Under the pieces are notes generated by a model. It was not told where the DNA came from and did no database searches. It saw nothing but the letters and a program-made list of their open reading frames with translations. The translations under genes and the position numbers were made by a program. Positions 22,311 through 42,101 of a stretch of 44,297 nt of DNA are shown here, piece by piece. How positions within the stretch are numbered: position 1 is the stretch's first letter; each line of letters begins with the position of its first letter. The stretch comes from an uncultured Tropicimonas sp. (GTDB lineage Bacteria > Pseudomonadota > Alphaproteobacteria > Rhodobacterales > Rhodobacteraceae): assembly GCA_947495685.1 (NCBI GenBank), contig CANLZY010000037.1, forward strand, positions 1 to 44,297, read 5' to 3'.

Positions 22311-22316
22311 GTGAAC

Positions 22317-22817
22317 ATGACGAAAGACAGAAAGACAGAGGATCGGCTGTTCCTCATGGGCCTCGAGCAATTCGACGCCGTGGCGACCGCGTTCAACTAC
22401 GGTCAGATGTATGGTCGCGATGTCGACGAGGGAGAAATCCCTGCGGATCTCGAATACGTCTGCAATGTCTCGGTGTCGGAGAGCCATGTCACACTGCGCG
22501 TGCCGGAAGACCTGCAGGAGCTGGCGGCGTTGGTTGGCGGCACCAATGATGACGTTGAAGAGGACGTATACGAAACCTGTCACATCAACGGAAAGCTCCG
22601 CGGCTACAGAATTACCGTGCCCAAATCGGCACTATTCAGGGGTCACGAGATAACGGCCGCCCGGCTACTCGCTTACAAAGAAGGACGCGGGCCTGGTTTC
22701 GACGATTTCATTCGACAGATGGAAGGCGATGAGGCGAATAAGCTGCTGACGCTTGCGGACGAGGCTGAGGGCATTGGCATGACCGCAAACCCACCCTCCA
22801 ACCGATATATTGAATAG
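22317..22817 (+). CDS. Phage protein of unknown function
   Basis: 166 aa, ATG 22317 with AGGAGG 5-6 bases upstream. N-terminal half acidic and helical, then a beta-rich CNVSVSESHVTLRVPEDL, and a C-terminal acidic helix. No family recognised. It has an elaborate 5' control region (promoter candidate, palindrome) and precedes the terminase, so it may act early, perhaps as a regulator; this is inference from position. Confidence 0.8.
   Translation: MTKDRKTEDRLFLMGLEQFDAVATAFNYGQMYGRDVDEGEIPADLEYVCNVSVSESHVTLRVPEDLQELAALVGGTNDDVEEDVYETCHINGKLRGYRITVPKSALFRGHEITAARLLAYKEGRGPGFDDFIRQMEGDEANKLLTLADEAEGIGMTANPPSNRYIE
22782..22808 (+). promoter_or_regulatory. Late promoter, sigma-28-like, terminase unit
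   Basis: ACCGCAAA (22782-22789), 11 bases, ACCGATAT (22801-22808). One of five elements sharing this geometry; the first box differs by one base from the commonest form. It lies inside the 3' end of the preceding gene and would give a leader of about 160 bases before the small terminase gene. Confidence 0.65.
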
Positions 22818-22976
22818 GAAAAGAGCGGAGGGGACCCTGAGCATACCACATATAGTGGTGCAGGGGGGGACGGGCCCGAAAGATCGCTACATACGAGGAA
22901 TTTTTCGAGCTCTTTCGCTTCTCTCTCACGATGAACGATCAACAAAGCAAAGAGTTTGTGATGAGCGCGTAACGAA

Positions 22977-23540
22977 ATGTCCGACGAAAATCCCAAAACA
23001 GAACAACCTGTTGTGAAGGTCTCAGCCGCTGATCTCGCTGCCGCATTCGGACTGACGAAGCGGCGCATCCAGCAACTCGCTACCGATCGCGAAGGCAACA
23101 TCGTCGTCCGCCTCGGACGAGATCAATATGACATGGTTGCCTCGACCAGGAATTTTCTGGCGGTGATGGACGAAGCGGCACAGACCGCCCTCAGCTCCGG
23201 CAACAAGGATTACAACGAAGAGCGCACCAGGCTTACCTCGGCCCGTGCCGACAAGGCGGAGCTTGAACTGACGATCCTTAGAGGCGATGCGGTGCTTCTG
23301 CCAGATGTCGAGGATCTTTTCTCGGCCGAATACGGCGAACTTCGGATGGGTTTCTCGCAGATCTCGGGCAGCATTGCTCGAAAGCTCTCGAAGACCTCGG
23401 ACGCCGCGGCTTGTCAGGAGATCGTTGCTGATGCTGTCGAGGGCGCCTTGAAGGTTCTCACGGCCGATCAGCCTGACGGCAAGCGGCCTCGCACACGTCA
23501 GCTTCCTGGATCGGAGGCGCTCGATGACGAAGACGACTGA
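22977..23540 (+). CDS. Terminase small subunit (Nu1-like)
   Basis: 187 aa. Binds the packaging start site and recruits the large subunit. The N-terminal winged-helix segment reads SAADLAAAFGLTKRRIQQLA, as in lambda Nu1 and its relatives; a helical multimerisation part follows (NEERTRLTSARADKAELELTILRGDAVLLPDVEDLF). The 3' end overlaps the large-subunit start by 17 bases. About the same length as lambda Nu1 (181 aa). Start ATG 22977 has no strong ribosome site. Confidence 0.88.
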   Translation: MSDENPKTEQPVVKVSAADLAAAFGLTKRRIQQLATDREGNIVVRLGRDQYDMVASTRNFLAVMDEAAQTALSSGNKDYNEERTRLTSARADKAELELTILRGDAVLLPDVEDLFSAEYGELRMGFSQISGSIARKLSKTSDAAACQEIVADAVEGALKVLTADQPDGKRPRTRQLPGSEALDDEDD

Positions 23541-25551
23541 TCCGAAAACTTTGCGGCGGGCGCGGGCCAGGGTGCGCAGGATCCGGTCCTCGGCATTGGC
23601 ACCCCGTCCGAAACTGACCCTGGCAGACTGGGCGGACAAGTATGCCCGGCTGTCTGTCGAGACCTCGGCAGAGCCTGGGCGGTGGGAGACATTCGGCCCG
23701 CAGCGCGGCCCGATGGAAGCAATGACCGACCCGAAAATTCGGCGAGTTGTCATGCGGAAGGGTGTCCGGATCGGCTTCACGAAAGCTCTGGTGTGGCTCG
23801 CTGGGTATCACATGCACTGGGATCCAGCCGCGATCCTCTTCTTCCAGCCGACAGATGGCGACGCACAGGACTTCTCGGAGTCGGAGATTCTTCCGATGAT
23901 CCGGGACACTCCGGAAATCCGCTCCATGTCGAATGTCGTGTTCGATGGTAGCAAGGCGAAGGAGCAATGGCACACCCGCAAGTTCAAGAATGGCGCGATC
24001 TTCCGTCTCCGCGGAGCTGCGGCTGAGGGAAACTTCAGACGTCTGACAACCCGGATCAATATTGCCGATGAGATCGACGACTCGAACTGGGACGACAAGA
24101 GCGGCGACAAGCTGGCCAGGTTGAAGAAGCGGGGAACCACTTTCTGGAACTCGAAAATCATCCTTGGTGGGTCGCCGGTGTTGCCTGCCAGCGAGGGCGG
24201 GCGCACAGACGCCGAGTTTCAGGACAGCGACCAGCGGCATTTCCACGTCAACTGCCCGCATTGTGGACATGAACAGGAGCTCATTTTTGGCGAGAAGGAA
24301 GGTCCGGGGCTCACGTGGAACGATGATCTGAGCGACGTCTGGTATCGGTGCGCGGGTGAAGGCTGCCGTATTGATGAGGAAGATCGGCTCGACATGCTCG
24401 AAAAGGGACGGTGGGTGGCGCACAACCCGGGGCACCCAGATGCCGGATTCCACTACCCTCAATTCTTGAGTCAGTTCGTCACGATGTCTGAGATAGCCAG
24501 GGATTGGCGAAGGGCATTGAAAGGCGGGATGTCGAAGATCCAGGTGTTCAAGAACGAAGTCCTGGGCGAGCCCTTCATGCCAGAAATCGGGGACGCAATG
24601 TCTCCTGATGATCTCATGCAGTATGTTGTCGACTACGGAGGCGAGGTCCCGGACTGGGTCGAGGTCATAGCGGCCGGCATTGATGTGCAAAAAGGAAACG
24701 CGGATGGCACGGCTTCTTATCTCGAAGCTGGCATCTGGGGCTTTGGTCCGAATGGTCGGAAGGCCCTGATCGCGCATTTTATCCTGGATGAGTTTCCGCT
24801 GACAGATGCAAGGAACCGGGCGTTCGAAGACCTCGAGGCGGTCTTGCTTCGTTCGTTCACCCGGGCTGACGGCCGACCGATGCGGGTGGAGGCAGTCTGC
24901 ATCGACTCCCATGGCGGCTTTTCGCAGAAAGTCTATTCCTGGGTCGAGAGGATGCGGAAAAAGGGGCGCCGCCGGTGGTTCGCTGTCCGCGGTGCCAACA
25001 ATGCGCCCGGCACCAGGAAGGAAACGATCTGGCCGAAAGCATCGGCAAAAAAGGTGCCAGTCCTGTTCACCATTGATGTGAACCTGGCAAAGGATGAGAT
25101 CGCGCCTACACTAACTGGCGGCGTGGTCGAGTTTCCGGCGCAAACCATCCCCGGCTCAGAAGAGGTGACGGAGGCGTTCATGCGCCGCCTGACCCGTGAA
25201 AAGCAGGTTGCTGTGGATGGAAAGGCAGCTGTCCGCTGGACCACACCATCCGACCAGGAGCCGTGGGATTGCTTGGTCTATGCCTATGCCGCGACGCATG
25301 CGCTGCGGTCGCTCCCTGGGGGTCAGAAGTGGAAGCGGTTGCTCGGGAATGAAGTCATCTTCCGGAGTGTGCCGGGCGGTGCGGAGGTTTTGGAAGGAGA
25401 CGCTCCTGTGGAGACTGTCAATGAATCCTCGCCGAGCCCCGCGCCATCCGTCTCGGCTCCGCCCCCTCCGACGCCCACAAACCCATGGCAAGCCGCCGCA
25501 CAAAAGGCGGCTGCTCCGACTGGCAGGCTGGTGAAGGTCAGGCCCGGTTAA
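23524..25551 (+). CDS. Terminase large subunit (GpA family)
   Basis: 675 aa, close to lambda GpA (641). The packaging motor and cos/pac nuclease. Family landmarks: LTLADWADKYARLS at the start, FFQPTDGDAQDFSESEILPMI in the ATPase domain, NIADEIDD as Walker B, a CPHCG zinc pair, and a C-terminal nuclease domain starting near IAAGIDVQ and ending at DCLVYAYAATHA. The extreme C-terminus is Pro/Ala-rich and may contact the portal. A GpA-type terminase suggests cos-like packaging with single-strand ends. Confidence 0.96.
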   Translation: MTKTTDPKTLRRARARVRRIRSSALAPRPKLTLADWADKYARLSVETSAEPGRWETFGPQRGPMEAMTDPKIRRVVMRKGVRIGFTKALVWLAGYHMHWDPAAILFFQPTDGDAQDFSESEILPMIRDTPEIRSMSNVVFDGSKAKEQWHTRKFKNGAIFRLRGAAAEGNFRRLTTRINIADEIDDSNWDDKSGDKLARLKKRGTTFWNSKIILGGSPVLPASEGGRTDAEFQDSDQRHFHVNCPHCGHEQELIFGEKEGPGLTWNDDLSDVWYRCAGEGCRIDEEDRLDMLEKGRWVAHNPGHPDAGFHYPQFLSQFVTMSEIARDWRRALKGGMSKIQVFKNEVLGEPFMPEIGDAMSPDDLMQYVVDYGGEVPDWVEVIAAGIDVQKGNADGTASYLEAGIWGFGPNGRKALIAHFILDEFPLTDARNRAFEDLEAVLLRSFTRADGRPMRVEAVCIDSHGGFSQKVYSWVERMRKKGRRRWFAVRGANNAPGTRKETIWPKASAKKVPVLFTIDVNLAKDEIAPTLTGGVVEFPAQTIPGSEEVTEAFMRRLTREKQVAVDGKAAVRWTTPSDQEPWDCLVYAYAATHALRSLPGGQKWKRLLGNEVIFRSVPGGAEVLEGDAPVETVNESSPSPAPSVSAPPPPTPTNPWQAAAQKAAAPTGRLVKVRPG

Positions 25552-25565
25552 TCTCTGACCGTATG

Positions 25566-25592
25566 ACCGGAAACTGCAGCTCCGACCGATAT
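25566..25592 (+). promoter_or_regulatory. Late promoter, sigma-28-like, GpW/portal unit
   Basis: ACCGGAAA (25566-25573), 11 bases, ACCGATAT (25585-25592) followed by TC. It lies between the large terminase stop and the GpW-like ATG at 25613, with a Shine-Dalgarno GGAAGGAG after it. Confidence 0.8.
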
Positions 25593-25612
25593 TCAAAAGG
25601 AAGGAGCGGCAC

Positions 25613-25894
25613 ATGCAGCGTTACCCAGAAGACCTTTACACAACAGAAGACCTGAAAGGGCTCATGAAGACGCTGAATGACAAGCGCCTCAAGGGCGTCC
25701 TTTCATTCTCGTACAACGGCACAAATTACACATTCATCAGCCCGGCTCAGATGCTGGTCATGGTCAAGGAATTGCAGGCGGAGCTTCGGAGCCGGACGGC
25801 CAAGAGTCTGAACCTGATCCCCGTCGACACCTCTCACCCACAGACGCGCCGGCCGTTGGCTGAGCTGCCTCCCCTGAAGTTCCCGGAAGAGTAA
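25613..25894 (+). CDS. Probable GpW-like head-tail joining protein
   Basis: 93 aa. Same place as lambda W, between large terminase and portal, and a similar pattern: helix (DLKGLMKTLNDKRLKG), two strands (VLSFSYNGTNYTF), then helix (AQMLVMVKELQAEL). Lambda W (68 aa) closes the connector before tail joining. The tail here is longer by about 25 residues. The assignment rests on position and predicted shape, not on strong identity. Confidence 0.65.
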   Translation: MQRYPEDLYTTEDLKGLMKTLNDKRLKGVLSFSYNGTNYTFISPAQMLVMVKELQAELRSRTAKSLNLIPVDTSHPQTRRPLAELPPLKFPEE

Positions 25895-25895
25895 T

Positions 25896-27497
25896 ATGAC
25901 AGAGCAAGCAGCGAACACTGTCGAGCCAGTGGCGGAAGAGTCCCGTAAGATCCGGGCGAATACGAGCCATTTTGTGCCTGCCATCGTGGGTGGCATCGAC
26001 ACTGTCGAGGCCAGGATGGATTACAATTTTGCCGAGATCTTGGACGATCGGCAGGATATCCCGCGCGGATCAGGAGAGGCAATCTCCTCAGCTTTGACAA
26101 GGAAAAAGCGCGCCGCCGTCCGGATGACCAGGCATGGCGTCAGGATGAATGGTCTGGCCGCTCGTGTGCCCGATGTATCCGCCGCTTACGGGATTGGCAC
26201 TGGTATCCGGCCCTCGATTCCGGACGACGACGAAGACCTGATGCGGCTTTGGGGAAAGTGGACAAAGGTCGCTGGCGCAGAGAAAGCGGGCTCGTTCTAC
26301 AACTGCCAGGAGACCGCTTGGCGCGAGTGGATGATCGGCGGCGATCAGTTCACCTACCTACGCTTCCGAAAGGGTAAGAAGGGGCAGGATCTCCCTGTTC
26401 CCTTTCAACTCCAGATTATGGGCACCGAGATGGTCCCGACATATGTGTCGTTCAATACGAAGGCACGCGGCGGGATCGTCCGAACAGCAGATGGGGATCC
26501 GTCTGCATACTATGTCTACAAGAACCATCCAGGAGAGCGCTTCGACCTTTTGTCTCCGGAGAAATCCGACCTGCTTCGCGTGCCTGCCCATTCGATCCTC
26601 CACTTGTTCCACGGCAAGGAGGCTGGAACGATCCGCGGTGAACCCTGGCTGACCCGTGTCCTCATCGAGATCCACGATCTCAAGAAATACATGCAAGCCG
26701 ATCTGACCAGGAAGATCCTGACAGCGAACATTGCCTACTGGCTCGAAATGCCCGCGCTTTCTGAAGAGGAAAAGGAGCGCCTGGCTGACGTCTACTACGA
26801 TGTGGACAACAAGAGGTATGTGAACTCGGCCGGCGAAGAGGTCGAGGCGCCCAAGAGCCAAGTTGTTGCAGCTCCTGAAAACGGCACGGTCGCAACCCTT
26901 CCAGCAGGCGCAAAAGTGAATGTCACTGCGCCGGCGGAATCCGGGAACACCTTTTCACCGTTCATGCAGCAGATCATGTTGCAGATCGCTCTCGCCGTGA
27001 ACATTCCGGTTGTCTATCTGTTCGGCGATCCGACGAACCTGAATGACCGACTTTACAAGGGCATATCCCAGCAGTTCGAGCGCCAGGTGAACATGTGGCG
27101 CCAGACGTTCAATGCGAAATTCAACAACCCAATCTGGAACACATTTGTCCGCCTTGCTGTATCTGAAGGCCGGTGGAAAGTTCCGGCGGGCAAGAAGCTC
27201 GAGGATTTTTTGAACCCCGAGTGGGTCGGTCAACCGTTCCCGCAGCTTCATTACGCCCAAGAGATCTCTGCCTGGACTGAGGCAGTCGAGGAGGGTTTTG
27301 AAACCCACTCCGACATTGTCAGGAAAAAGGGTGATGACCCGGATCGTGTCCGTCGTGAGCGCCTCGACGATCTGGTGAAGGATATCCGTGCGGGATTGAA
27401 GGAGATCCCAGCTTTCTGGGGCCAGCGGATGATCCAGAAGAACCTGGGCTGGGGAGAAAAAGAGGTCGCAGAATACCGGGCTCAGACTGGGGCGTAG
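25896..27497 (+). CDS. Portal protein (GpB/lambda family)
   Basis: 533 aa, the same length as lambda GpB. It forms the dodecamer at the capsid vertex through which DNA passes. Typical segments: DWNFAEILDD-like start (MDYNFAEI), a middle with RVPAHSILHLFHGKEAGTIRG, IHDLKKYMQADL, and VVYLFGDPTNLNDRLYKGI near residue 370. Starts one base after the GpW-like stop. Confidence 0.96.
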   Translation: MTEQAANTVEPVAEESRKIRANTSHFVPAIVGGIDTVEARMDYNFAEILDDRQDIPRGSGEAISSALTRKKRAAVRMTRHGVRMNGLAARVPDVSAAYGIGTGIRPSIPDDDEDLMRLWGKWTKVAGAEKAGSFYNCQETAWREWMIGGDQFTYLRFRKGKKGQDLPVPFQLQIMGTEMVPTYVSFNTKARGGIVRTADGDPSAYYVYKNHPGERFDLLSPEKSDLLRVPAHSILHLFHGKEAGTIRGEPWLTRVLIEIHDLKKYMQADLTRKILTANIAYWLEMPALSEEEKERLADVYYDVDNKRYVNSAGEEVEAPKSQVVAAPENGTVATLPAGAKVNVTAPAESGNTFSPFMQQIMLQIALAVNIPVVYLFGDPTNLNDRLYKGISQQFERQVNMWRQTFNAKFNNPIWNTFVRLAVSEGRWKVPAGKKLEDFLNPEWVGQPFPQLHYAQEISAWTEAVEEGFETHSDIVRKKGDDPDRVRRERLDDLVKDIRAGLKEIPAFWGQRMIQKNLGWGEKEVAEYRAQTGA

Positions 27498-27514
27498 TTT
27501 TTTCGCCCTGCCAT
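27497..27514. repeat. 18-bp repeat, copy 1 (hairpin with T-loop)
   Basis: GTTTTTTCGCCCTGCCAT occurs here and at 32003-32020. In both places a preceding GGGGCG pairs with CGCCC to make a hairpin with the T-run in the loop, and a promoter element follows at once. Confidence 0.75.
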
Positions 27515-27515
27515 G

Positions 27516-27542
27516 ACCGGAATCCCGCGGCCCGACCGATAT
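27516..27542 (+). promoter_or_regulatory. Late promoter, sigma-28-like, protease/capsid unit
   Basis: ACCGGAAT (27516-27523), 11 bases, ACCGATAT (27535-27542) followed by TC. It follows the hairpin repeat directly and precedes the protease ATG at 27571. Confidence 0.8.
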
Positions 27543-27570
27543 TCCAAATAAGCAACAGGAAACGAGCAGT

Positions 27571-28548
27571 ATGCCCTTCGATAACGCCAATTTCAGTGAG
27601 GCCTTCGCCATCAGCTCTCCGAAGAACGGGGAGGTATGGTTTGAAGTAAAAATGGTTGCCGACGACACTTATGTCGTCGACATCATGGGGGTCATTGGCT
27701 CCTGGATGGTTGATCCGCTCTTGCTTGTCGAGCAGCTCCGCGAGTTCGACAAAGAAGGCGCCAGGATCGAGTTCCGGATCGACAGTCAGGGCGGCGTTGT
27801 CGCCGGAAGTTCTGTGCTTATGACCGCGATCGGAGAACTCAAAGCCCATACCGTTGCAAAGATCTGGGGGCGCGCGTTCTCCATGGCCTCGTTGATCGCC
27901 ATGGCGTGCGATGAAGTCCACATCGCCCGTGACGGCTACATGATGATCCATGACCCGATCATCGAAATGCGCGGAAATCCGGATCAGCTGAAATCTGCCG
28001 TGGCCTTCCTTGAAGGGATCCGGGAACAGGCCGCCGATCGATATGCAGAGAAGGTCGAGAAGGCCGGCCACACCCGCGAGGAGGTCCTCGCCGCAATGGC
28101 TGCAACGACTTACTACAACGCGACCCAGGCGGTTGAGTTTGGTCTTGCCGACGTGGTGACTGAACCGACGAAGGCAAAGCTCTGCGGCGAAGACGCCGAG
28201 TTCGAGGCGGTCATGCTCGCCGAAATGCCGGATGAGGTTCGGGAGGCTCTTGCAGAGAAAGGGTTCGATGAGCCCGAACCGGAAATGAACGAGGATACTC
28301 CGGCCGAACCGGCTGTTGAGGCTCCTGAAGCTGTCGAGCCTGAGGCCGTTGAGCCCGAAGCCGACCCAGTCATGCAGGCGAACGAGGATCCTACGATCGC
28401 CGCCCTGAAATCCGCCCCCACTTCGGCGGAAGTATCGACCGTGCAGCCTGACGATGAGGACACGCCGGTCAAAAAGTCGGAGGCCCAACTGGTCGCCGAA
28501 ATCAGAGACCGGCAGTTCGCTGCTGAATTCAATCCAAGGAAAAGGTAA
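27571..28548 (+). CDS. ClpP-like prohead protease with scaffold-like tail
   Basis: 325 aa. Cleaves head proteins during maturation. ClpP fold in residues about 30-205 with nucleophile S104 in GRAFSMASLIAM and H127 in MMIHDPI; the third residue should follow near the helix EQAADRYAE. Residues 230-325 are acidic and proline-rich, ending in FNPRKR. Such a protease plus C-terminal scaffold arrangement parallels lambda C with nested Nu3. An internal start for a separate scaffold (for example the M in PEMNED) is possible but not proven. Confidence 0.93.
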   Translation: MPFDNANFSEAFAISSPKNGEVWFEVKMVADDTYVVDIMGVIGSWMVDPLLLVEQLREFDKEGARIEFRIDSQGGVVAGSSVLMTAIGELKAHTVAKIWGRAFSMASLIAMACDEVHIARDGYMMIHDPIIEMRGNPDQLKSAVAFLEGIREQAADRYAEKVEKAGHTREEVLAAMAATTYYNATQAVEFGLADVVTEPTKAKLCGEDAEFEAVMLAEMPDEVREALAEKGFDEPEPEMNEDTPAEPAVEAPEAVEPEAVEPEADPVMQANEDPTIAALKSAPTSAEVSTVQPDDEDTPVKKSEAQLVAEIRDRQFAAEFNPRKR

Positions 28549-28551
28549 GAT

Positions 28552-29625
28552 ATGCCCAAGCATTTCGTCTTTGACATTCTGACTCAAGAGTCTCCGGACG
28601 GAACTCTTGGCTCATCCCTCGCTGGCATCATCGAGGGTGTCCCCTATAGCCCGTCACGCGTTGCGGAAATGGGTCTGTTCCAGACTGACAGTCTTCCCAG
28701 CACAACCGTTACTCTCGAGACCGACGGCCTCGGAATCGATCTGGTTGCGAACACAGCCCGCAGTTCTGAAAAGACCTTCGTCGATGGGACCAGCCCGAAA
28801 CTCGTGCATTTCGACGCGGCCCACCTTTCCAAGTCTGCGAAGATCACGGAAACCGAGATCCGCAACATTCGAGCGGCCGGCCAGCTGAAATTCCAGACGG
28901 CAAAGAACGCGCTGCTCCGCAAAGTTCGCAAGCCGCTCCTGGATGTCCGTGCAACGAAGGAGTTCCACCGCCTTGGTGCGATCCGGAACATCATCTTGGA
29001 TAGCGACGGTGTTACGCCGATCGACAATATGTATACCCGCCTCGGTCTGACCGATCCTGGCATCACTTACCTCGACTTCGAGGCCATGGCGGCCATGGAC
29101 GGGTTCCCGCTCCGTGACAAGCTGGGCGTCATTGTCGACAGCATCGCCGACAACCTCGGCGGCATCGGTTTTGACAGCATCTACTGCTTTGTGACCAACG
29201 ACACGATGCGCAAGATTGCAGCTCTGCCCGAATGCGAAGTCGCCTTCCAGCGTCAGCAGGACGGTGCAGCTCTCCGTCAGAACTACGGCTACGGAACCGT
29301 GTTCAACTACGGCGGCGTGACCTTCGAGGTCTACCGCGGCAAGGTCGGAACCGTCTCCTTTGTCGGCGCGGATGAGCTTGTTTTCTTCCCGCTCGGTGCC
29401 AACAACTTCTGGCAGATGTTCGCGCCCTCCACCCGGATCGTTGATCCGTTCACCGGTGAGCCGATCGGTGAAGGTGAGCTCGGACAGCCGGAGTTCTATC
29501 TGCCTTCCGCAGACACCACGAACGGTGAGTGGGCCGCGGTTGAGATCCAGTCCAACCCGATCACCTTCAACACTCGCCCGCTCTCGACGGTTGTCGCTTC
29601 GACGCTGGCCGATCCTAACGCGTAA
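28552..29625 (+). CDS. Major capsid protein (GpE family)
   Basis: 357 aa, compared with 341 for lambda GpE. HK97-fold capsid subunit. Family features: short N-terminal arm, YSPSRVAEMGLF, then a beta-hinge ETDGLGIDLVANT, KLVHFDAAHL with KSAKITETEIRNIR, and the C-terminal domain with FGYG-like YGYGTVFNYGGVTFEVYRG. No GpD-like decoration gene is found between protease and capsid, unlike lambda. A terminator follows. Confidence 0.96.
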   Translation: MPKHFVFDILTQESPDGTLGSSLAGIIEGVPYSPSRVAEMGLFQTDSLPSTTVTLETDGLGIDLVANTARSSEKTFVDGTSPKLVHFDAAHLSKSAKITETEIRNIRAAGQLKFQTAKNALLRKVRKPLLDVRATKEFHRLGAIRNIILDSDGVTPIDNMYTRLGLTDPGITYLDFEAMAAMDGFPLRDKLGVIVDSIADNLGGIGFDSIYCFVTNDTMRKIAALPECEVAFQRQQDGAALRQNYGYGTVFNYGGVTFEVYRGKVGTVSFVGADELVFFPLGANNFWQMFAPSTRIVDPFTGEPIGEGELGQPEFYLPSADTTNGEWAAVEIQSNPITFNTRPLSTVVASTLADPNA

Positions 29626-29652
29626 GTAGGGTTCCTCCTCCTGACCCTGCTG

Positions 29653-29688
29653 GCCCCGTCCCTCCTTGGGGCGGGGCTTCTTCTTTTT
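29653..29688 (+). terminator. Terminator after major capsid
   Basis: GCCCCG-t-CCC, loop TCCTT, GGG-g-CGGGGC, then TTCTTCTTTTT. It separates the abundant capsid message from the following connector genes, which therefore depend on readthrough. Confidence 0.85.
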
Positions 29689-29699
29689 GGGATGTTTGA

Positions 29700-30275: not shown

Positions 30276-30277
30276 TC

Positions 30278-30775: not shown

Positions 30776-31196
30776 TCCAGTCGCGCTCATCCATGATGAG
30801 CTCCAGCGCATCGCCGAAACGCTTGGCGCACCGGTTGAGTTCGATCGGCCATACGATTTTGACAGGAAGGATTTGCCCCTGGTCATCATTCGGACCGCCT
30901 CCGAGGGTGTCGTGGAGGATGAGGACGCATATCCCTCTGAAGCCTGGGATCAGCTCTGGGAAACTGATCCCTCGATCGAGGTTCTTGTCGCAATGGATGA
31001 CCCGTGGGACGTTCACACCGACCTGGAGGCCAAATGGACGGCATTGCGTCAGGAGATCCGCAAATCCAGTCTGACCGATCACATCCGCCAGAATTCCAGG
31101 CCGAGGCTGCGGAAGGAGCGGCTCGAGATCGAAGACCGCCCCGACATCGCAATCCTCTCAATCCAATTTTCCTTCGAAGTCGAGCGGGACGAATGA
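30768..31196 (+). CDS. Tail terminator-like protein (GpU position)
   Basis: 142 aa from ATG 30768 (MSDPVALIHDELQRIA), overlapping the previous gene. The alpha/beta pattern with a helix first, then strands, and DLEAKWTALRQEIRKS fits tail-terminator proteins that cap the tail tube. Assigned mainly by position just before the major tail protein. The stop lies inside the -35-like box of the next promoter. Confidence 0.72.
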   Translation: MSDPVALIHDELQRIAETLGAPVEFDRPYDFDRKDLPLVIIRTASEGVVEDEDAYPSEAWDQLWETDPSIEVLVAMDDPWDVHTDLEAKWTALRQEIRKSSLTDHIRQNSRPRLRKERLEIEDRPDIAILSIQFSFEVERDE

Positions 31197-31222
31197 CCGG
31201 AATCCCGGCCGGCGACCGATAT
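31196..31222 (+). promoter_or_regulatory. Late promoter, sigma-28-like, major tail protein
   Basis: ACCGGAAT (31196-31203), 11 bases, ACCGATAT (31215-31222) followed by TC. It overlaps the stop of the tail-terminator gene and precedes ATG 31252, with GAAAAGGGG as ribosome site. Confidence 0.8.
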
Positions 31223-31251
31223 TCTAAGTAAGCAATGAAAAGGGGCCGCAA

Positions 31252-31986
31252 ATGGCAAACGTCAAAAACATCCGGTCATTCAGCGGCTGGGGTTACTTCA
31301 GAAAGACCGGTGAGGACCACTTCGTCTCGTTCGGTCACGTAGAGAGTCTCTCTCGAGCAGTCGAAGTTGAAAAAGAGGATATCTGGTGCTCTGGTTCCGG
31401 CAATCGGACAAAAGAAGACACGGACATCATCGGAAAATCTGCCTCTATTGCGGTCACGCTCCGTGAGACCAATGCTCGAAACTTTGCGATCGCCTCCCTT
31501 TCGGATGAAAGCTTCTTTGTCCAGGACGCCGCGACTGCCGAAATCCTGTCCGGCACCGACATGCCTGTCGGCGGGATGGTTGAGCTGGGCTACCTGAACG
31601 CTACGAATGTTGTCGTTACAGATGGCACTGATGACCTAAAGCTTGGCCAAGATTACGAGCTCGACGCCGCCGCAGGAACGATCGAGTTCCTGACCGCTCA
31701 GTCGACATACGACATCACCTTCGATGCCCCGGCGATCACTGAAAGCGACGCCAAAATCGTCTCGAAACTGCTCTCTGCCGACGAAGGAATTTCCGGCGAG
31801 CTGGTTGTGGTCCAGAAGCAGACGCGCGGTTCGACCAGGTATAAGTTCAGCTGCTCTTGCACGCTTTTTCCTGACGGCGACCAGACTCTCATCAAGGAAG
31901 ACACTGGGAAAGACACGATCACGCTTTCCGGTGACATCAAGAAAGTTGACGGAGAGTTCGGCGAACTGGTCGAAATCGACAACTAA
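31252..31986 (+). CDS. Major tail (tube) protein
   Basis: 244 aa, near lambda GpV (246). Beta-rich with a tube-type core in the N-terminal half (SGWGYFRKTGEDHFVSFGHV..., SASIAVTLRETN) and strands ending in TITLSGDIKKVDGEFGEL. Its own strong promoter and the following hairpin suit a highly expressed protein. Position before the tail chaperone and tape measure supports the call. Confidence 0.87.
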   Translation: MANVKNIRSFSGWGYFRKTGEDHFVSFGHVESLSRAVEVEKEDIWCSGSGNRTKEDTDIIGKSASIAVTLRETNARNFAIASLSDESFFVQDAATAEILSGTDMPVGGMVELGYLNATNVVVTDGTDDLKLGQDYELDAAAGTIEFLTAQSTYDITFDAPAITESDAKIVSKLLSADEGISGELVVVQKQTRGSTRYKFSCSCTLFPDGDQTLIKEDTGKDTITLSGDIKKVDGEFGELVEIDN

Positions 31987-31993
31987 AATTTCC

Positions 31994-32050: not shown

Positions 32051-32080
32051 CCTGAAAGCCAGTAAAATGAAGGGCCTGTC

Positions 32081-32745: not shown

Positions 32746-34680
32746 ATGGCTAATCGAAAACCTCTTGTTGTTGCTTTTGTCTCAAAAGTGGACGGCGCCG
32801 TTGCTGGAATTCAGCAGATGGCGAAAGAGGTTACGTCCTTCAGCAAGAAAACAGAGGTCGCCGAGCGCGCAGTGGGGCAGCTCGGCGACGAGACGCAGGA
32901 CCAAGCGAAGGAGGCGGCAAGGCTTCTGCGCGGCCTCGGAGTCAAGCGGGAAGCATCCCACAAAGCTGAAGTCGCCCGCCGCGAAGAGGAAAAAAGGCAG
33001 CTCAAGGCCATGTATGCGGCCGGACTTATCTCTGCAGGCGACTACGAGCGCGGCGTTATCTCTGCAAACAAGAAAATCGAACGTTCGCACAAGTCAGTCG
33101 GGCTCTCTATGGAAACCGCCTGGACGAAGTCGCTCGCAAAAATAAAGACCAGGCTGACCTCATTCTCTTCGAGCGCCAGGGCGTCCATGCGGCGCGTTGG
33201 CGTAGGCGCGGCTGCAGGTCTTGCCACTGCAGGAATTGTTGGCGGGATCACAGCCAGGCAGGTGAGCCAGGCAGCGGATTACGCTGACGAAATTACGAAG
33301 CTCTCGCGGCAAACGAACATCTCGACTGAAGCGTTGTCGGCATACAGCTACGCCGCCGAACAGAGCGGGCTGAGCCAGAAGACCCTTTTCAACGCCGCGA
33401 AAGAGATGGTCAAAGTCCTCGACGGCGGGGGCAAAGCGTTCGCTGATCTCGGCGTGCGCACGCAGAACGCAGACGGATCTTTCCGGGCTTTCGGAGATCT
33501 CATCCCGGAAGTCGTCGACAGCCTCAACGAGATCGAAGACCCCATCAAGCGCGCTGCAAAAGCCGCAGAAATATTCGGACTCCGGAGCGGTCCGGAGATG
33601 GCCTCGTTCATCGCTCTCGGGAGTAAGGGGCTTGAAGAATACACCGCAAAGGCAGAGCGTCTTGGTAAGGTAGTCGACCAGCAGACCGGTGAAGCAGCCG
33701 AGCGGTTTAATGACAGGCTCGACGATCTCAGTCAGCAATATGAAGGCCTTCGCCTACAGTTCTCAGCACCGTTCTTCGACCCGTTCGCGCAGAGCTTTGA
33801 AGAGATCGGTGCCCTCATCGAACGGAATTCAGATGCGATAAAAGCGTTCGCCTCAGCGATGGCTTCGGGTGTTGTCGACTATGTCCAAGACTTCATTGCG
33901 ATCCTGGAAGGACGCAACGGAGACGTCAAAAACGAATGGCTGCTTGAGTTTGTCGGCTTCATGAAAGACCTCGGCGGCGTTATCAAGGACACCGTCATTC
34001 CGGCGATCGTGTGGGTTGTCGAAAAGCTCAAAGAAATGGACCCGGCGACGGCGAAGATCGTCGTTGCGCTGGCACTTTTCGGCGGTGCGATTGCTCCAGT
34101 TGTTGCTGGGCTCGGCACTCTCGCCGCCGGTGCAAGCGCTGTCGTCGGCATGGTTGGCGGCTGGTCTGCTCTCGGAACCGCCATAGGTGCCGTTGCAGCG
34201 GCCATTGCCGGTATCATCGGACTTCCTGTCGCTGCCGTCGCGGCGATCGGAGCGGGGATCGTTGCGGCTGCCGTCGCGATTTACATCTACTGGGATGAGA
34301 TAACGGCATATTTTTCGGCGACAATTTCCAAGATCGGCGAGTGGTTCACTCATGCCCTGACACACCCGTTCGCCGCCCTGAAGGACGCCGCGCTGGCCGC
34401 GCTCAACTACCTCAATCCGATCGGCCTCATTCTGAACGGCGTTGAGAAGTTCACGGGCGTCGATATCCCCCTCATCGGTGAGAAATCCGCCGTATTGGCC
34501 GCGGCGGCTGAAAGCTCGACGAAGAGCCAGGAGCCTGTCGCAACAGTCAATCTCCAGCTCGAGAAGGGCGGCCCGGAGTATGCAATGACCGCCCCAGCCA
34601 GCGTGGCCGCCGCACTCGAAGCTGACCAAAACCTCAAGAAAACACTGTCTCCGACGGGCATGCCGAGGACTTTTAGATGA
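32746..34680 (+). CDS. Tail tape measure protein
   Basis: 644 aa, which by the usual 0.15 nm per residue would set a tail of about 95 nm. Coiled-coil N-terminal part (EAARLLRGLGVKREASHKAE), then ADYADEITKLSRQTNISTEALSAY, common in alphaproteobacterial phage tape measures, and hydrophobic segments from about 435 to 525 (VVALALFGGAIAPVVAGLGT..., GIIGLPVAAVAAIGAGIVAAAVA) for passing DNA through the inner membrane. Ends overlapping the next ATG. Confidence 0.93.
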   Translation: MANRKPLVVAFVSKVDGAVAGIQQMAKEVTSFSKKTEVAERAVGQLGDETQDQAKEAARLLRGLGVKREASHKAEVARREEEKRQLKAMYAAGLISAGDYERGVISANKKIERSHKSVGLSMETAWTKSLAKIKTRLTSFSSSARASMRRVGVGAAAGLATAGIVGGITARQVSQAADYADEITKLSRQTNISTEALSAYSYAAEQSGLSQKTLFNAAKEMVKVLDGGGKAFADLGVRTQNADGSFRAFGDLIPEVVDSLNEIEDPIKRAAKAAEIFGLRSGPEMASFIALGSKGLEEYTAKAERLGKVVDQQTGEAAERFNDRLDDLSQQYEGLRLQFSAPFFDPFAQSFEEIGALIERNSDAIKAFASAMASGVVDYVQDFIAILEGRNGDVKNEWLLEFVGFMKDLGGVIKDTVIPAIVWVVEKLKEMDPATAKIVVALALFGGAIAPVVAGLGTLAAGASAVVGMVGGWSALGTAIGAVAAAIAGIIGLPVAAVAAIGAGIVAAAVAIYIYWDEITAYFSATISKIGEWFTHALTHPFAALKDAALAALNYLNPIGLILNGVEKFTGVDIPLIGEKSAVLAAAAESSTKSQEPVATVNLQLEKGGPEYAMTAPASVAAALEADQNLKKTLSPTGMPRTFR

Positions 34681-36851: not shown

Positions 36852-36852
36852 T

Positions 36853-37200: not shown

Positions 37201-38876
37201 TGCGCCCCTTCATCGCCTTGGCTTCTGACACGGAAGAATTTGACGCGGAAACTCACACGCGCGACGACCTGCAAGCTTTCTCCCTGTCCATTTCTCGGAA
37301 GCAGAACGAGCTGGCCCGCGCTTCGATCCAATTCAAAACGCCCCAGGATCCGCTTTCGGAGCTTGCGGACCATCGCGTCCTAATCAGTCAGGACGGCAAT
37401 CTCCTGTTCGATGGAACCCTCTCGAATGCCCCGCGCGGCTCTGTCTCTGCGACGCTCTACGCAGAGGCTATTGCCGAACCATCCGATCTGGAGGACCAGG
37501 TCCAAGCTCTCATGGAAGCGGCAAAAATCTCCCCTTTTTACGATGCTTTGTTCGTCCCGGAAGGTTCAGAAGACGACCCAGTCGAAGTCCTCGCTGGGTA
37601 TTCCTCCGTCCTTTGCTACCCGCGCGACGGATCCGCGATTTTCCTCGCAGACGCGATGGAGTCCGACACCGTCCTGACCGTCATGCCGACTGATGACAGC
37701 ATATCCTGGGACTTCGATCCGCCTGCATCCGTCTACACCCTCGACCTCTCCGTCGCCTGGCAGCAGCTCATCAATCAGACATTCTCTGACGCAAGCAAAG
37801 TCGGCACGATCGAAACCATGACGCCTGACGCCCTGGCTTCGAGCCTGCCGGCAGTTGGAGCGTCAGTCGGAACCGGTTTCACTGTCCTGGAATCCTCCGC
37901 CGAGGAGGATCTGGACGCGTTCGGTCGCAGCCAGGCCGAGGTCGTTGAAGTTGAAAAGGAAATTTCCAGCGATGAGCTGGACCCCGCATTCGTCGAGGAA
38001 GGCGTCTATACTGCCCGCGCATCCATTACGCCCATGAATGTGTCCCTGCGGCTGCTCTATACGGCGGAAGTGAACCGCAGCGAGACCTGCTCAATTTCCA
38101 TCCCCGTCGGGATCCAGGATGCGGCCATCCGCTCCGACACCGACGACCAGGAGGAAGTCGAAACCATCGCGCTCCGGGAGATTACCCCGATTACCGGTCT
38201 CAGCGCCTGGGAAGCCTACACGTCTTACGAAGAAGGCGACGAGATCACGGAAGATGGCCTCGTTTTTGAAGCCAGGGAGGATCATACCTCCGGCTCCGAT
38301 ATCGACTATTCGAAATGGACCTCGGTCGGCGAGACGGAATACATTTCCAGCCGCCGTGTCAGCTCTTTCCTCCGATCTAATCGCGGCCAGGAAGCTCTCG
38401 CGCATGCTGTGGAAAGGATCCGCGCACGGGCCCGCATTGCGTCCCGCTGCGTCTATGTCTCATTCGAGGCACCCATGCCGTCGCCGCATCTGGTGACCGA
38501 CGACTGCGACGTGACTATCGTCCATGAACGCCTTCCTGGCGGCTCTATCACTGGAAAACTGATCGAATACTCACTCGACTGGGAAGACGGCCGTCGCACA
38601 TTCTCGGGGAAGATCGCTGCCTCGGTAGGCACCGGGGGCGAGGACACTGCCGCCCTGGAACTCGGCGAGGACAGCCCTTCATCTGCAACTGGGCGTGTTT
38701 CTTGGTCAGTGTCGGGCACGGGAGACGAGCAAAAAGGAGCATTCGAAGCCGGGCAGTCCATCCCTGAGACTGTGGTCACGGCCAAAACCACCCCTGTCGC
38801 AACAACGGAGTTTGGGCACGAAGTCACGGCGACTATTTCCGGAGAAATAGCTGTGCCGCAGGGAGTAACGCTATGA
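37200..38876 (+). CDS. Probable tail hub/baseplate protein with carbohydrate-binding insert
   Basis: 558 aa. The first 90 residues (SLSISRKQNELARASIQFKT, VLISQDGNLLFDGTLS) look like a tail-hub domain seen in siphovirus baseplates. Residues about 335-378 (AYTSYEEGDEITEDGLVFEA then SKWTSVGETEY) look like a CBM5/12-type carbohydrate-binding module, with the Y..GD.V.Y.G..Y.A....S....W pattern. The end is beta-rich. Such inserts help tails attach to the host surface. Overlaps both neighbours by a few bases. Confidence 0.68.
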   Translation: MRPFIALASDTEEFDAETHTRDDLQAFSLSISRKQNELARASIQFKTPQDPLSELADHRVLISQDGNLLFDGTLSNAPRGSVSATLYAEAIAEPSDLEDQVQALMEAAKISPFYDALFVPEGSEDDPVEVLAGYSSVLCYPRDGSAIFLADAMESDTVLTVMPTDDSISWDFDPPASVYTLDLSVAWQQLINQTFSDASKVGTIETMTPDALASSLPAVGASVGTGFTVLESSAEEDLDAFGRSQAEVVEVEKEISSDELDPAFVEEGVYTARASITPMNVSLRLLYTAEVNRSETCSISIPVGIQDAAIRSDTDDQEEVETIALREITPITGLSAWEAYTSYEEGDEITEDGLVFEAREDHTSGSDIDYSKWTSVGETEYISSRRVSSFLRSNRGQEALAHAVERIRARARIASRCVYVSFEAPMPSPHLVTDDCDVTIVHERLPGGSITGKLIEYSLDWEDGRRTFSGKIAASVGTGGEDTAALELGEDSPSSATGRVSWSVSGTGDEQKGAFEAGQSIPETVVTAKTTPVATTEFGHEVTATISGEIAVPQGVTL

Positions 38877-41497
38877 GTTTTGAACGGAAAATTGCGGCCC
38901 AGGGGCTGAAAAATACCCAGGGAGTAAGCCTCCCGGCGTCCGGTGAAAGGGTGCCTGGGTTCGTGCAGGTTTCGGCCGGCGTGGTGACATTGCCGGACCG
39001 TGGTCATGAAGACCACGGACAGAAAATCCGCCATCGGCTGGAGTTGAAGAGCAAGTCAACGACTTCTACAACGCTCACCACCGCTGAAATCGATCCAGGC
39101 GCGGGCGGCGCTTTTTACTTGCGCGCGTCCGGTGACGTGACGCTGGACCTGAAAAAGCCTCCTGCGGTTCCAACAGACCAGCACACACCATCCGGAGCGT
39201 GCCGCAAGCGCGTGTGGGATGTCGACTTGTTCATTTATTGCGACAGCCCCGGCACAATGTCGTGGCCGACTAATACCATTTTTTCGGTCTGGAATTGGAG
39301 CCTCGCGGGCCCCGATGGAGCACAGTATGTCGATATGGACTCGACTCCATTCACAACTCTCGCGGCCGGGTATGGCTGCCTCCTCCGTCTGAAATATCTC
39401 GAAGTGTCAGGCGATTGGGTCGTAGAGCTCGTCGCCTGGTCCGACGCATTCAGCGATCCGGACGGACTGACCGACGACACAACCGAGCCGGAAGTTGACC
39501 CGGAAGTAGAGCCCGGGGATGTCGGAAGTCCGGGGACAACTGACCCGACCGACACCTACATCGATCCAGAGACCGGCGAAGAGCTCGTCCCAGAGGATTT
39601 GGTGTCGAAGGCTGGCACTCTTGTCGCGCTCCATGAGAGCGGTGCCCTCTCGCTCAGCATTGGCACAGGGGCGGCGTGGTATGACTTCGGCAGCGCGCCG
39701 GTCGGGACAACGCAAATATCTGTTCTCGCAAAACAAGGCGCAATTGCAGCACAACTGGCCGCACAGACGTTCAAGTGGAGTGAGGACTGCAGGGATTGGA
39801 ATCGCGTCTGGCTAATCGATGAGGAGCTTGTAGAGTTCCCAGTGTCGAACGGAGGATTTGAAACCGGCGACTTGGAAGGATGGACCATCGAAAGCACCGG
39901 CGCGACCCCGGCTGTGCTTGACCTGACTTCTCCACCGCAGCGCCCGGACTCGACGTATTATCTGACCGGGGCCCAAGGCACTGTCCCCGGCGAAATCGGC
40001 GACGACTTCGAGGTCTCGCAGACCATTTCGACGGCGGAGATAAACAGCAACGTTCAGCTCGTCGCCGATGTGTATCTCGCCGCGGAAGGCGCGGTCGCCG
40101 GACTCGAAGTTCGCGCGCAATCAGCCGCAGAAAATGAGATGCAGAATACCCAGTGGAGCGGTGATATCCACACCGGCGCCGGGAATTTTGTAAAGGTCGA
40201 GTCCGCTTTTGCTCACGCGACGGCCGGATCGCTGTCTCTACGCTTCACGGAATACTCGCGTCCGCTGAACGGCGACACTCTGCCGTCAGGGACTAACAGC
40301 CTCAAATTTTATCCAGGCGTAGCATTTCGCGGCACTGACAAAAAGCACCGCATGCTCGCACAGGTCCTCGACTCGGACGGAAATCCGACGCCGGTCTCCA
40401 CGTCCGTAGTCATTTCCGGCCTCAGCAACAGCAAGCACCGAATGTCTGTCGAGGACAAGATCGGAATTTCCGTCGAGCCGCTCGACGGGACTGTAGCGAC
40501 GACGAGCTCCTCGACCTGGCCTCCGACTGGGACTGCTACTGAATACAAATGCGCCAGCGGACCAGGAACATACAAACTAAATCTCGTCGAGCAATCCGAA
40601 TTCTACATCGAATTTGCGGAAATAAACAGCACGGACGACCTATGGCCGAGCGGGTCGTTTGAAATTTCTTTCGCCCCCGCTGAATACAGGAGCGAAGAAG
40701 TCAGCACTTCGGACGAAGACTCGACGACAGAAGTCGGTGCATGGACGACGCTGACATGCGAGCTCACAGTTGGAAGCGACACAGAATTCGAGGTGCGCCT
40801 TTCTGGAAGCGGTATTCCTTCTGCGGTGTATTTTGACAATGTGCGGCTCGAGCAAATAGTCCGGAGCAGTGAGGGCGCCCGCGGAGTTGGCCGGGACTTG
40901 AAAAACCGCCGACATGTCCTTGTTGCTGGCAGCTCGCTGTTTGAATTTCACGACTTTTCAGTCGAGAAAATCGGAACTTCTCCGCTCGACGGTACCGGCG
41001 AAGTCCTGGTTGCCGCGCACGGCGATCGCATTGTTATTGCGGATCCAGTCGCCCTGAAGGTCTCAGCGTCAGACGATGGCGGAGCGACATTCGAGACGCA
41101 CGATCTCGACGCCGCTCCCGTTCAAGTGTTCGCACGAACAGGCCCTTTCGCGCTGCTCGACACTGGAAAAATCGTCGTCATCGACGGCGGCGCGTTTGAG
41201 ATGAGCACTATCGAGCCAGGTTCGCGTCTCGAATACGATGTCCGTCGCGGAAACTGGTTCTCCTCCGATAGCAATGGGCTTGTCGCACATTCGACGACGC
41301 TCGGCGCCTGGGCGGCGGACAAGACAATGCCGGTCGGCTCGAGCACCGCACCGCACCGGATCCTCGCGACCGACTCCGGACGGCAGATCGGGTATGTCGA
41401 AGGAGTTGCGGATCTCTTTAGCCGAGACGCCGAAGCGTGGTCCTTGAATTATTCGCTAATAGCAGGCGGAATTCTGGGAATGCAGGAGATAAAATAG
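38873..41497 (+). CDS. Large tail tip/receptor-binding protein candidate
   Basis: 874 aa, last gene of the tail operon, where the host-specificity protein usually lies. Beta-rich throughout. Residues about 205-240 form a Pro/Asp/Thr linker (EPEVDPEVEPGDVGSPGTTDP). From about 325 a carbohydrate-binding-like segment begins NGGFETGDLEGWTIESTG. The C-terminal 200 residues (RRHVLVAGSSLFEF, DRIVIADPVALKVSASDDGG, LLDTGKIVVIDGG) suggest a beta-propeller of BNR/Kelch type. No lambda J-like sequence recognised. Function inferred from place and domains. Confidence 0.65.
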   Translation: MSFERKIAAQGLKNTQGVSLPASGERVPGFVQVSAGVVTLPDRGHEDHGQKIRHRLELKSKSTTSTTLTTAEIDPGAGGAFYLRASGDVTLDLKKPPAVPTDQHTPSGACRKRVWDVDLFIYCDSPGTMSWPTNTIFSVWNWSLAGPDGAQYVDMDSTPFTTLAAGYGCLLRLKYLEVSGDWVVELVAWSDAFSDPDGLTDDTTEPEVDPEVEPGDVGSPGTTDPTDTYIDPETGEELVPEDLVSKAGTLVALHESGALSLSIGTGAAWYDFGSAPVGTTQISVLAKQGAIAAQLAAQTFKWSEDCRDWNRVWLIDEELVEFPVSNGGFETGDLEGWTIESTGATPAVLDLTSPPQRPDSTYYLTGAQGTVPGEIGDDFEVSQTISTAEINSNVQLVADVYLAAEGAVAGLEVRAQSAAENEMQNTQWSGDIHTGAGNFVKVESAFAHATAGSLSLRFTEYSRPLNGDTLPSGTNSLKFYPGVAFRGTDKKHRMLAQVLDSDGNPTPVSTSVVISGLSNSKHRMSVEDKIGISVEPLDGTVATTSSSTWPPTGTATEYKCASGPGTYKLNLVEQSEFYIEFAEINSTDDLWPSGSFEISFAPAEYRSEEVSTSDEDSTTEVGAWTTLTCELTVGSDTEFEVRLSGSGIPSAVYFDNVRLEQIVRSSEGARGVGRDLKNRRHVLVAGSSLFEFHDFSVEKIGTSPLDGTGEVLVAAHGDRIVIADPVALKVSASDDGGATFETHDLDAAPVQVFARTGPFALLDTGKIVVIDGGAFEMSTIEPGSRLEYDVRRGNWFSSDSNGLVAHSTTLGAWAADKTMPVGSSTAPHRILATDSGRQIGYVEGVADLFSRDAEAWSLNYSLIAGGILGMQEIK

Positions 41498-41502
41498 CCC
41501 TG

Positions 41503-41537
41503 AATTTTGGTGCGGCTTCTTCTGTCTCTATGTCCCA
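41503..41537 (+). promoter_or_regulatory. Second-class phage promoter candidate, sigma gene
   Basis: AATTTTGG (41503-41510), 17 bases, CTATGTCCCA (41528-41537), identical in both boxes and spacing to the element at 9834-9868. The sigma ATG (41541) follows at the same distance as the helicase ATG does, again without a Shine-Dalgarno, so the mRNA is probably leaderless. Confidence 0.62.
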
Positions 41538-41540
41538 AGC

Positions 41541-42101
41541 ATGGGCAACGAAACAGAAAAACCGCGATACGAGCCGAGCCGCGAAGAGCTAAATCTGCTC
41601 CTGGAATTCGTGCGCGCGGAGGCAAAAAAGGCGATCCGAAAACATCCCGGAATGGATTTTGACGAACTCATCGGAGAGGGAAATCTCGCCTTGGTTCGAC
41701 GGATTGAGGATTACGATCCGACCCGCGGAGCAACTCTCTGGACATACTGTCGTGTTCGGATTCCACGCGCGATGACGGACCACCTCCGTCGAGAATTCAC
41801 CCGCGTAAACCGCGGCAGGCAGGTCGAGGTGTCCGAGGCTGACGGCGAAATCCCTCTCATTGAAGAGGAAAATCACGCGCCAGGCATAGATCTCCGCGAC
41901 GCTCTGGATCGGATCGAGGATGACAGAGAGCGATTTGTCGTCGCTCGTAAATTGTCCGGTTTCTCGGACATTCATATTGCCGGCGAGATTGACCGCTCCG
42001 AACGAACGGTCAGGCGCATCTATCAATCCGCCATCGTCAAAATACGTCCGAAAACCTGCTCTGTGACCGATATTCAGTTAAAGAGCGGGAACATTTCATG
42101 A
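41541..42101 (+). CDS. Phage sigma-70-family RNA polymerase sigma factor
   Basis: 186 aa with regions 2 and 4 and no clear region 3. Region 2, about 17-92: FDELIGEGNLALVRRIEDYDP with RGATLWTYCRVRIPRAMTDH and LRRE, the core-binding and -10-recognising helices. Region 4, about 118-170: DDRERFVVARKLSGFSDIHI, then DRSERTVRRIYQSA, the -35-binding helix-turn-helix. It would redirect host RNA polymerase. The five ACCGGAAT-N11-ACCGATAT elements before virion and lysis genes are the natural targets; one lies within its own 3' end. The stop overlaps the endolysin ATG. Target assignment is inferred. Confidence 0.87.
   Translation: MGNETEKPRYEPSREELNLLLEFVRAEAKKAIRKHPGMDFDELIGEGNLALVRRIEDYDPTRGATLWTYCRVRIPRAMTDHLRREFTRVNRGRQVEVSEADGEIPLIEEENHAPGIDLRDALDRIEDDRERFVVARKLSGFSDIHIAGEIDRSERTVRRIYQSAIVKIRPKTCSVTDIQLKSGNIS
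42048..42074 (+). promoter_or_regulatory. Late promoter, sigma-28-like, lysis unit
   Basis: TCCGAAAA (42048-42055), 11 bases, ACCGATAT (42067-42074) followed by TC. It lies inside the end of the sigma gene and drives the endolysin ATG at 42098, with GAGCGGG as ribosome site. The first box is the most divergent of the five. Confidence 0.68.

Follow-up and report, generated by a model that had tools for sequence, protein, structure and literature searches.

The DNA studied here is a window of 44,297 nucleotides, one whole contig (C37) among the 189 contigs of a 5.6-Mb genome from an uncultured Tropicimonas sp. What appears to be a prophage occupies part of it, with the late genes on the plus strand extending from the terminase (22977) to the lysis genes, the last of which ends near 43.6 kb. 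Within this prophage, a small sigma factor gene and five two-box sites point to a late sigma factor encoded by the phage, which would direct the core RNA polymerase of the host to five late promoters that have a FliA-like -10 box and a -35 box private to the phage; we give this reading a probability of about 0.8. Control of the packaging, head, tail and lysis genes by a sigma factor of the phage's own had been suggested in a first-pass annotation. It is supported by sites that are exact and point in one direction, by their placement before late genes, by their confinement to the phage and by a FliA-like region 2.4 in the protein. Binding of the protein to these five sites, the start points of transcription and a feedback loop are what we infer from these sequence features.

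The five sites read ACCGNAAW-N11-ACCGATAT and all lie on the plus strand, starting at 22782, 25566, 27516, 31196 and 42047 (P1 to P5, Table 1). Four of them fit the pattern without mismatch and P5 with a single one, its -35 box being TCCGAAAA. Four of the starts are those given in the first-pass annotation, whereas the last had been put at 42048; only from 42047 is its spacer 11 base pairs (bp) long, and counted in that way the claimed spacing of exactly 11 bp is borne out at all five sites, as is the continuation GACCGATATTC at four of the five. Sixteen columns are invariant in all sites, namely A.G.CCG.AA.C upstream and ACCGATAT downstream. No other match with up to three mismatches occurs in the window; shuffled windows gave 1.26 matches on average at this threshold and reached five in 1 of 100 cases. 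When spacers of 5 to 21 bp were tried with both boxes fixed, five matches were obtained, all with 11 bp and all on the plus strand, and no other. Leave-one-out weight matrices, each built from the other four sites, ranked every site first among 88,524 positions; the sites scored 24.2 to 42.7 and the next best position at most 13.4. Scanned in this way and compared with shuffles, as had been proposed, the window thus showed the five sites at the top and no equally good match elsewhere. Identity between the flanks of the sites averaged only 0.25 upstream (57 bases) and 0.34 downstream (33 bases; P3 and P4 being most similar here, at 0.48), so that recent duplication does not seem to be the origin of the boxes. 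The element ACCGATAT by itself was found six times in the window (0.54 expected); the sixth copy (1809-1816, plus strand) has no upstream box, lies inside a methylase gene of the opposite strand and was taken as chance.

The pattern is largely confined to the phage. In the whole genome, all three perfect matches to ACCGRAAW-N11-ACCGATAT are phage sites, as are two of the three matches with a single mismatch, the third being a lone site on contig C58. In a sample of 365 genomes of the host family, a mismatch-free search with N at position 5, a pattern to which four of the five sites conform, gave four matches here and one each in three other genomes; the reversed exact pattern gave five matches in total in the same sample. 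The element ACCGATATTC occurs 15 times in the genome, including four times in the window, and at all five of the 11 outside copies that were inspected the upstream box is absent. Elsewhere, ACCGGAAW-N11-ACCGATATTC was present in three viral contigs and 18 genome contigs, with one site each, and in the stretches examined near these 21 matches there was no second site at up to two mismatches. About 15 matches are expected in 257 Gb under uniform base use, and the 21 matches were taken as chance.

Every site was said to lie just before a virion or lysis transcription unit, and this agrees with the distances from the end of the -10 box to the next start codon, which are 20-29 bp at P2 to P5 and 168 bp at P1 (terS). 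A random site falls 15-35 bp before a start with p = 0.009, giving P ~3e-8 for at least four of five sites; the start list for this test was our own and held 24 plus-strand and 13 minus-strand starts. With box 2 only 20-29 bp from four starts, transcription must begin just after box 2 if the sites are promoters. At P4, the stop codon of the preceding gene and the -35 box share one base, the first of the box. P5 is embedded in the sigma gene itself, as described in the first-pass annotation, spanning codons 169-178 at its 3' end. These codons come after the last well-predicted long helix of the protein (154-168), and residues 171-180 have a mean confidence of 49 in the structure model, so that P5 would fit in the gene without touching the predicted DNA-reading domain. 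The leader behind P1 contains, 5' of the small terminase gene, a palindrome (22845-22859, ACCACATATAGTGGT) and, after it, a run of G and GGGCCCG (region 22845-22878); palindrome and G-rich stretch may represent the cos region.

The product of 41541-42101 is indeed a sigma factor, of the sigma-70 family according to Pfam, PHROG and NCBIfam, with two domains in both alignment and structure model. The NCBIfam model that it matches above cut-off, TIGR02937, is a superfamily model and matches RpoD and RpoH as well. The next-best NCBIfam model was that of FliA/WhiG (TIGR02479), with 42.1 bits against a cut-off of 189.6; this curated score and the absence of domain 3 rule out membership in the FliA/sigma-28 family. 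Where FliA has domain 3, the alignment shows a gap and the model a low-confidence linker between the two domains. The model, built from an alignment of 26 sequences, placed the sigma-2 helices within residues 14-98 and sigma-4 at 118-168, with a mean predicted local distance difference test score (pLDDT) of 84.4 and a predicted template modelling score (pTM) of 0.52; a poor single-sequence model (pLDDT 47) was not used. Domains 2 and 4 alone, as found here by alignment and model, are also the mark of the extracytoplasmic function (ECF, group 4) sigma factors. ECF promoters have a GGAAC-type -35 box at ECF spacing, which goes with an ECF-type region 2.4. Box 1 has GGAA at three of the five sites, but nearer to the -10 box than in ECF promoters, and region 2.4 of the phage protein differs from that of the host ECF factors. 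The best sequence match of the whole protein in the PDB was FliA (6e-6); with region 2 alone, SigA (1.9e-5) was as good as FliA (2.2e-5). The PDB matches listed by Foldseek were sigma factors of several groups, including WhiG and SigH. Their query TM-scores of 0.27-0.33 are low, as expected for two domains that can take up any position relative to each other (pTM 0.52). Viral structure matches bearing a name were mostly sigma factors. In a tree, the protein stood on a branch of 4.14 without a supported place.

Region 2.4 provides the link between protein and sites. The phage sequence TYCRVRIPRAMTDHLR aligned to TYAVQRIRGAMLDELR of FliA, with R73, D80 and R83 opposite R74, D81 and R84 of FliA, and R88 opposite R91 with a two-residue gap. 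In FliA, R74, D81 and R84 reportedly read CGATAA, and R91 the preceding GC. The sigma-28 promoter consensus is TAAAGTTT-n11-GCCGATAA, according to an excerpt of PMC2859248. The sites do not make up this full promoter, although the spacing is the same 11 bp and the -10 boxes, which hold CGATAT, match at six of eight positions; the -35 boxes match at only 0-2 of eight. Both the sigma-28-like layout of the promoters and the rewritten -35 box proposed in the first-pass annotation are supported. The kept FliA-type residues go with the kept CGATA box, and it is the -35 box that departs from TAAAGTTT; the fit of these residues with the CGATAT box is suggestive of the phage sigma factor reading it.

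Could a sigma factor of the host, rather than that of the phage, read the sites as promoters? A general sigma model at 1e-5 recovered RpoD, two RpoH and three ECF-type factors from the host, together with the phage sigma factor and one response regulator, so candidates are present. No FliA was found with this model and threshold, which a very divergent factor might escape. The D and R of region 2.4 are common to the host ECF factors, but the equivalent of R74 is missing from all six host factors, the position being taken by V, I and V in the three ECF factors and by W in RpoH and RpoD. Since the perfect genome matches are all in the phage, the motif does not seem to serve any regulon of the host, and we regard reading by a host factor as very improbable.

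Under the late sigma reading, a trigger would lead to some sigma factor, and P1 to P5 would then fire. Region 2 of the protein would read the CCGATAT -10 box, extended to GACCGATATTC in four of the five sites, and region 4 would read the phage-private -35 element, in its fullest form TGACCGGAAWC. P1 would serve packaging, P2 the portal, P3 protease and capsid, P4 the tail and P5 the lysis unit. From P4, transcription would pass through the tail genes into the sigma gene at their end, as there is no clear stop before it, and would yield more sigma factor by positive feedback; the late switch is thus probably self-amplifying. P5, in the 3' end of the sigma gene, would start transcription of the endolysin gene and of two small genes for membrane- or lipoprotein-like products. 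If this is true, the phage offers a compact example from nature of a sigma factor whose specificity is divided between its domains and has been altered in one of them at a time, and the reading predicts start points for late transcription.

Several observations weigh against this reading. No sigma homologue was found in phages by tblastn at E 1e-5, in viral contigs or genome contigs, or in 193 relatives (1e-8) and 384 genomes of the class (1e-7), two overlapping samples from which the own genome was excluded. The 77 phage records obtained at E 10 (best listed 2e-4) and the 103 plasmid records at E 1 (best listed 3e-5) look like general sigma matches. Likewise, a second phage with such a set of sites was not found among the viral contigs, the genome contigs and the 365 family genomes, nor a comparable site family in 13 viral contigs with FliA-type sigma factors and three other phages. 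At up to three mismatches the host genome holds 133 matches, as compared with 48 for the reversed pattern; weak matches are thus common and mean little. The spacers agree between sites at 0.36-0.55 (mean 0.47), which is above random, partly because the spacer ends belong to conserved columns. A looser dyad count (3-mer, gap, 8-mer) of 5 was reached also by GC-rich repeats of the window, and three other phages reached looser dyad counts of 8, 8 and 5 at 4/8, by way of repeats. The 4/8 dyad count was 4 in the window and 3 in 60 of 60 and in 40 of 40 of its shuffles; a GC-rich dyad of the window likewise reached 4. For the first expression of the sigma factor, no obvious promoter was found, and the roles of the FliA residues are those reportedly found by Koo et al. 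2009. Finally, judged from the excerpts of both sources, the motif predicted in silico for phage 7-11 (PMC4331800) differs from GTAAtg-(16)-aCTA as mapped later (PMC8948821), and it is because of this difference between the first promoter set and the mapped one that we do not go above 0.8.

Another difficulty lies in the likeness of the -35 and -10 boxes, which agree with each other at 5, 6, 7, 7 and 6 of 9 positions, as a direct-repeat operator would show too. In that case GACCG..A, present twice and 19 bp apart, would be bound by a phage DNA-binding protein that represses the late genes of the prophage, or would act as a stoperator to block them. Short sites at gene borders in one orientation are also typical of the stoperators of mycobacteriophage L5, and single half boxes, the sites included, are commoner than base composition predicts (ACCGNAAW 25 vs 9.1; CCGATAT 11 vs 4.3). 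An operator of this kind nevertheless seems unlikely. The two boxes differ systematically in their ends, with AAA or AAT in box 1 and ATAT in every box 2, a difference to be expected of -35 and -10 elements, and no helix-turn-helix repressor was recognised in the subset of window open reading frames (ORFs) that was scanned. Moreover, the early region of the phage has no two-box site, and promoters of another type are not conspicuous among the late genes, where sigma-70-like promoter matches were not above shuffles (2 vs 3.5; 1 vs 3.2). The elements might also act in RNA or as another DNA signal, for processing, translation or as a recombination boundary, in keeping with their position at gene borders and near ribosome-binding sites. 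At P5, a strong predicted RNA hairpin (42055-42089, plus strand) pairs the ribosome-binding region of the endolysin gene in read-through RNA; over 50 nucleotides (nt) none of 200 shuffles was as good, and over 75 nt eight were. For P1 to P4 there was no or weak excess, 15 to 191 of 200 shuffles folding as well (71-80 nt), and no fold shared among the five sites was found. The predicted exposure of the ribosome-binding region changed from 0.31 to 0.56 at P5, and the changes at P2 to P5 are within the range of 14 other late starts. A fixed spacing with a variable spacer fits a two-domain DNA reader, and a function other than that of promoters is, in our view, hardly to be expected. A transcript from P5 would be without the upstream arm of the hairpin found in read-through RNA; this could add a delay to lysis, which is only a lead. 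Late promoters read by the phage sigma factor hence remain the preferred explanation.

We also looked for short FliA-type sigma factors in other viruses. A DNA pattern for FliA-type region 2.4 picked up 41 viral contigs, in which the R-D-R residues are present by construction of the pattern; of the 41 open frames, phmmer matched 35 to the sigma factor of the window. Eleven of the frames, of 165 to 228 residues as aligned, are without domain 3 (L061, L062, L064, L068, L072, L073, L077, L081, L090, L093 and L100). An alignment-based scan of viral contigs gave nine weak sigma matches without the FliA signature. The comparable site families mentioned above were sought by grouping CGATA sites that are alike at 17 or more of 31 positions; one contig (G686) was covered to base 20,000 of 21,040 and the other 12 whole, in pieces. 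The largest grouping was a site with three partners, in an 87.5-kb contig with 205 such sites on both strands, as compared with four partners in one orientation in the window. The core CGAT[CGT] was applied to the 13 contigs alone and produced groups with as many as 16 sites in those that are GC-rich; these were read as composition and nothing was drawn from them. Grouping on upstream regions was dropped, as it missed the window's own sites and so failed the positive control. Whether short FliA-type sigma factors without domain 3 form an unrecognised class of phage switch is doubtful. In such a class, the CGATA-reading region 2 would be kept and the -35 box rewritten in each phage, resulting in a private late regulon unreadable by the flagellar sigma factor; the switch of the window would, in addition, feed back on itself and have its lysis promoter inside its own gene.

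Table 1. Sites, late genes and hairpins in the window
Feature	Position	Strand	Remarks
P1	22782..22808	+	-35 box 22782-22789, -10 box 22801-22808; in 3' end of ORF 22311-22817; 168 bp to start of terS
Terminase small subunit	22977..23540	+	PHROG 57, 2.7e-22; would be served by P1
Terminase large subunit (GpA type)	23524..25551	+	PF05876, PF20454
P2	25566..25592	+	-35 box 25566-25573, -10 box 25585-25592; intergenic, 20 bp 5' of ORF 25613
Small ORF, 93 amino acids, in place of head-tail joining protein	25613..25894	+	position only, no PHROG hit; would be served by P2
Portal protein	25896..27497	+	PF05136
P3	27516..27542	+	-35 box 27516-27523, -10 box 27535-27542; intergenic, 28 bp 5' of head protease gene
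Head maturation protease	27571..28548	+	PHROG 94, 5.9e-42; would be served by P3
Major capsid protein E	28552..29625	+	PF03864
Terminator-like hairpin with T run, 3' of capsid gene	29652..29678	+	consensus match only
P4	31196..31222	+	-35 box 31196-31203, -10 box 31215-31222; 29 bp 5' of tail tube gene
Tail tube protein	31252..31986	+	NF052337, 2.9e-23; PHROG 807; would be served by P4
Tape measure protein	32746..34680	+	PHROG 8462
Sigma factor, 186 amino acids	41541..42101	+	Pfam Sigma70_r2, 7.4e-10; PHROG 351, 1.8e-15; TIGR02937, 66.2 bits, above cut-off
P5	42047..42073	+	-35 box 42047-42054 (TCCGAAAA), -10 box 42066-42073; 24 bp 5' of endolysin gene
Endolysin	42098..42787	+	PHROG 181, 1.3e-35; would be served by P5
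Small membrane-type protein, holin candidate	42787..43140	+	by position; no lysis family hit
Small lipoprotein-like ORF, spanin candidate	43246..43638	+	by position, translation by eye; no PHROG hit
Terminator-like hairpin 3' of lysis genes	43753-43772		consensus match only

The head genes are of the lambda type, with a GpA terminase, a lambda-family portal, a ClpP-like protease and capsid E, and the prophage would be that of a temperate phage. Of the window ORFs scanned, none was recognised as an integrase gene, and for the tRNA-Phe gene (998-1072) the contig holds no repeat of at least 12 bases elsewhere. Phages of Acetobacter and Paracoccus have terminases that match that of the window at 35% and 32%, which, together with the two RpoH factors, would fit an alphaproteobacterial host. 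Searches for the terminase in 385 and 295 genomes were run at 1e-100, where only close relatives are detectable. A tail protein search in 339 genomes returned only the protein itself. Long DNA queries from the window gave no plasmid match and, among phages, short matches in 10 Pseudomonas records, of which the five listed correspond to a 69-bp piece of the protease gene. Terminator-like consensus matches numbered 18 in the region of the capsid-end hairpin and 10.7 in shuffles. Outside the late genes, a NotI-type restriction endonuclease (2846-3895) and a C5 cytosine methylase (1634-2827) are encoded on the minus strand near the tRNA-Phe gene, and a protein with a GmrSD N-terminal domain adjoins a HEPN-domain protein (14203-16273, minus strand), possibly as a defence or toxin-type pair. 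The same 75 bp are found at both contig ends (1-75 and 44222-44296) in opposite orientation, like the remnant of an insertion-sequence end.

For temperate phages whose heads are of the lambda type, antitermination or activation is the usual view of late control, as with Q of lambda and Ogr of P2. These share with the window phage a late switch, but one that is not a sigma factor, and no match to the Q or Ogr family was present among the window ORFs scanned. T4 and SPO1, which likewise have phage sigma factors controlling middle or late genes, are lytic phages, and their promoter types differ. T4 gp55 and SPO1 gp28 and gp34 are named as sigma factors for middle or late genes in an excerpt of PMC9429907. 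In phiEco32 (gp36) and 7-11 (gp47), sigma factors have private late promoters with transcription starts 6-9 bp from the element, and the consensus of this group is tAATGTAtA (single element) or GTAAtg-(16)-aCTA, as far as the available text of PMC8948821 goes. Like these two, the window phage has a sigma-70-family factor and few private promoters before late genes; its box sequence and spacing, in contrast, are unrelated to theirs, and it has lambda-type head genes. In the partial text at hand of a survey of 103 alphaproteobacterial phages (PMC10783043), a sigma factor is mentioned once, in one cluster. No report of a FliA-like phage late sigma factor was recognised in the literature searched, where sources were available in part, which does not prove that nothing of the kind has been published. 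With FliA/sigma-28, the phage system has in common the 11-bp spacing, CCGATA in the -10 box and the equivalents of R74, D81 and R84, but its -35 box is not TAAAGTTT-like, AC instead of GC precedes CGATA, and its sigma factor lacks domain 3 and scores below the family cut-off. The window shows two characteristics of a phage-encoded late sigma factor with cognate promoters: the phage carries the sigma gene, and a motif private to it precedes the late units. Altogether, phage sigma factors with late promoters of their own, as in T4, SPO1, phiEco32 and 7-11, are a known kind of regulator, of which the system described here would be a new variant.

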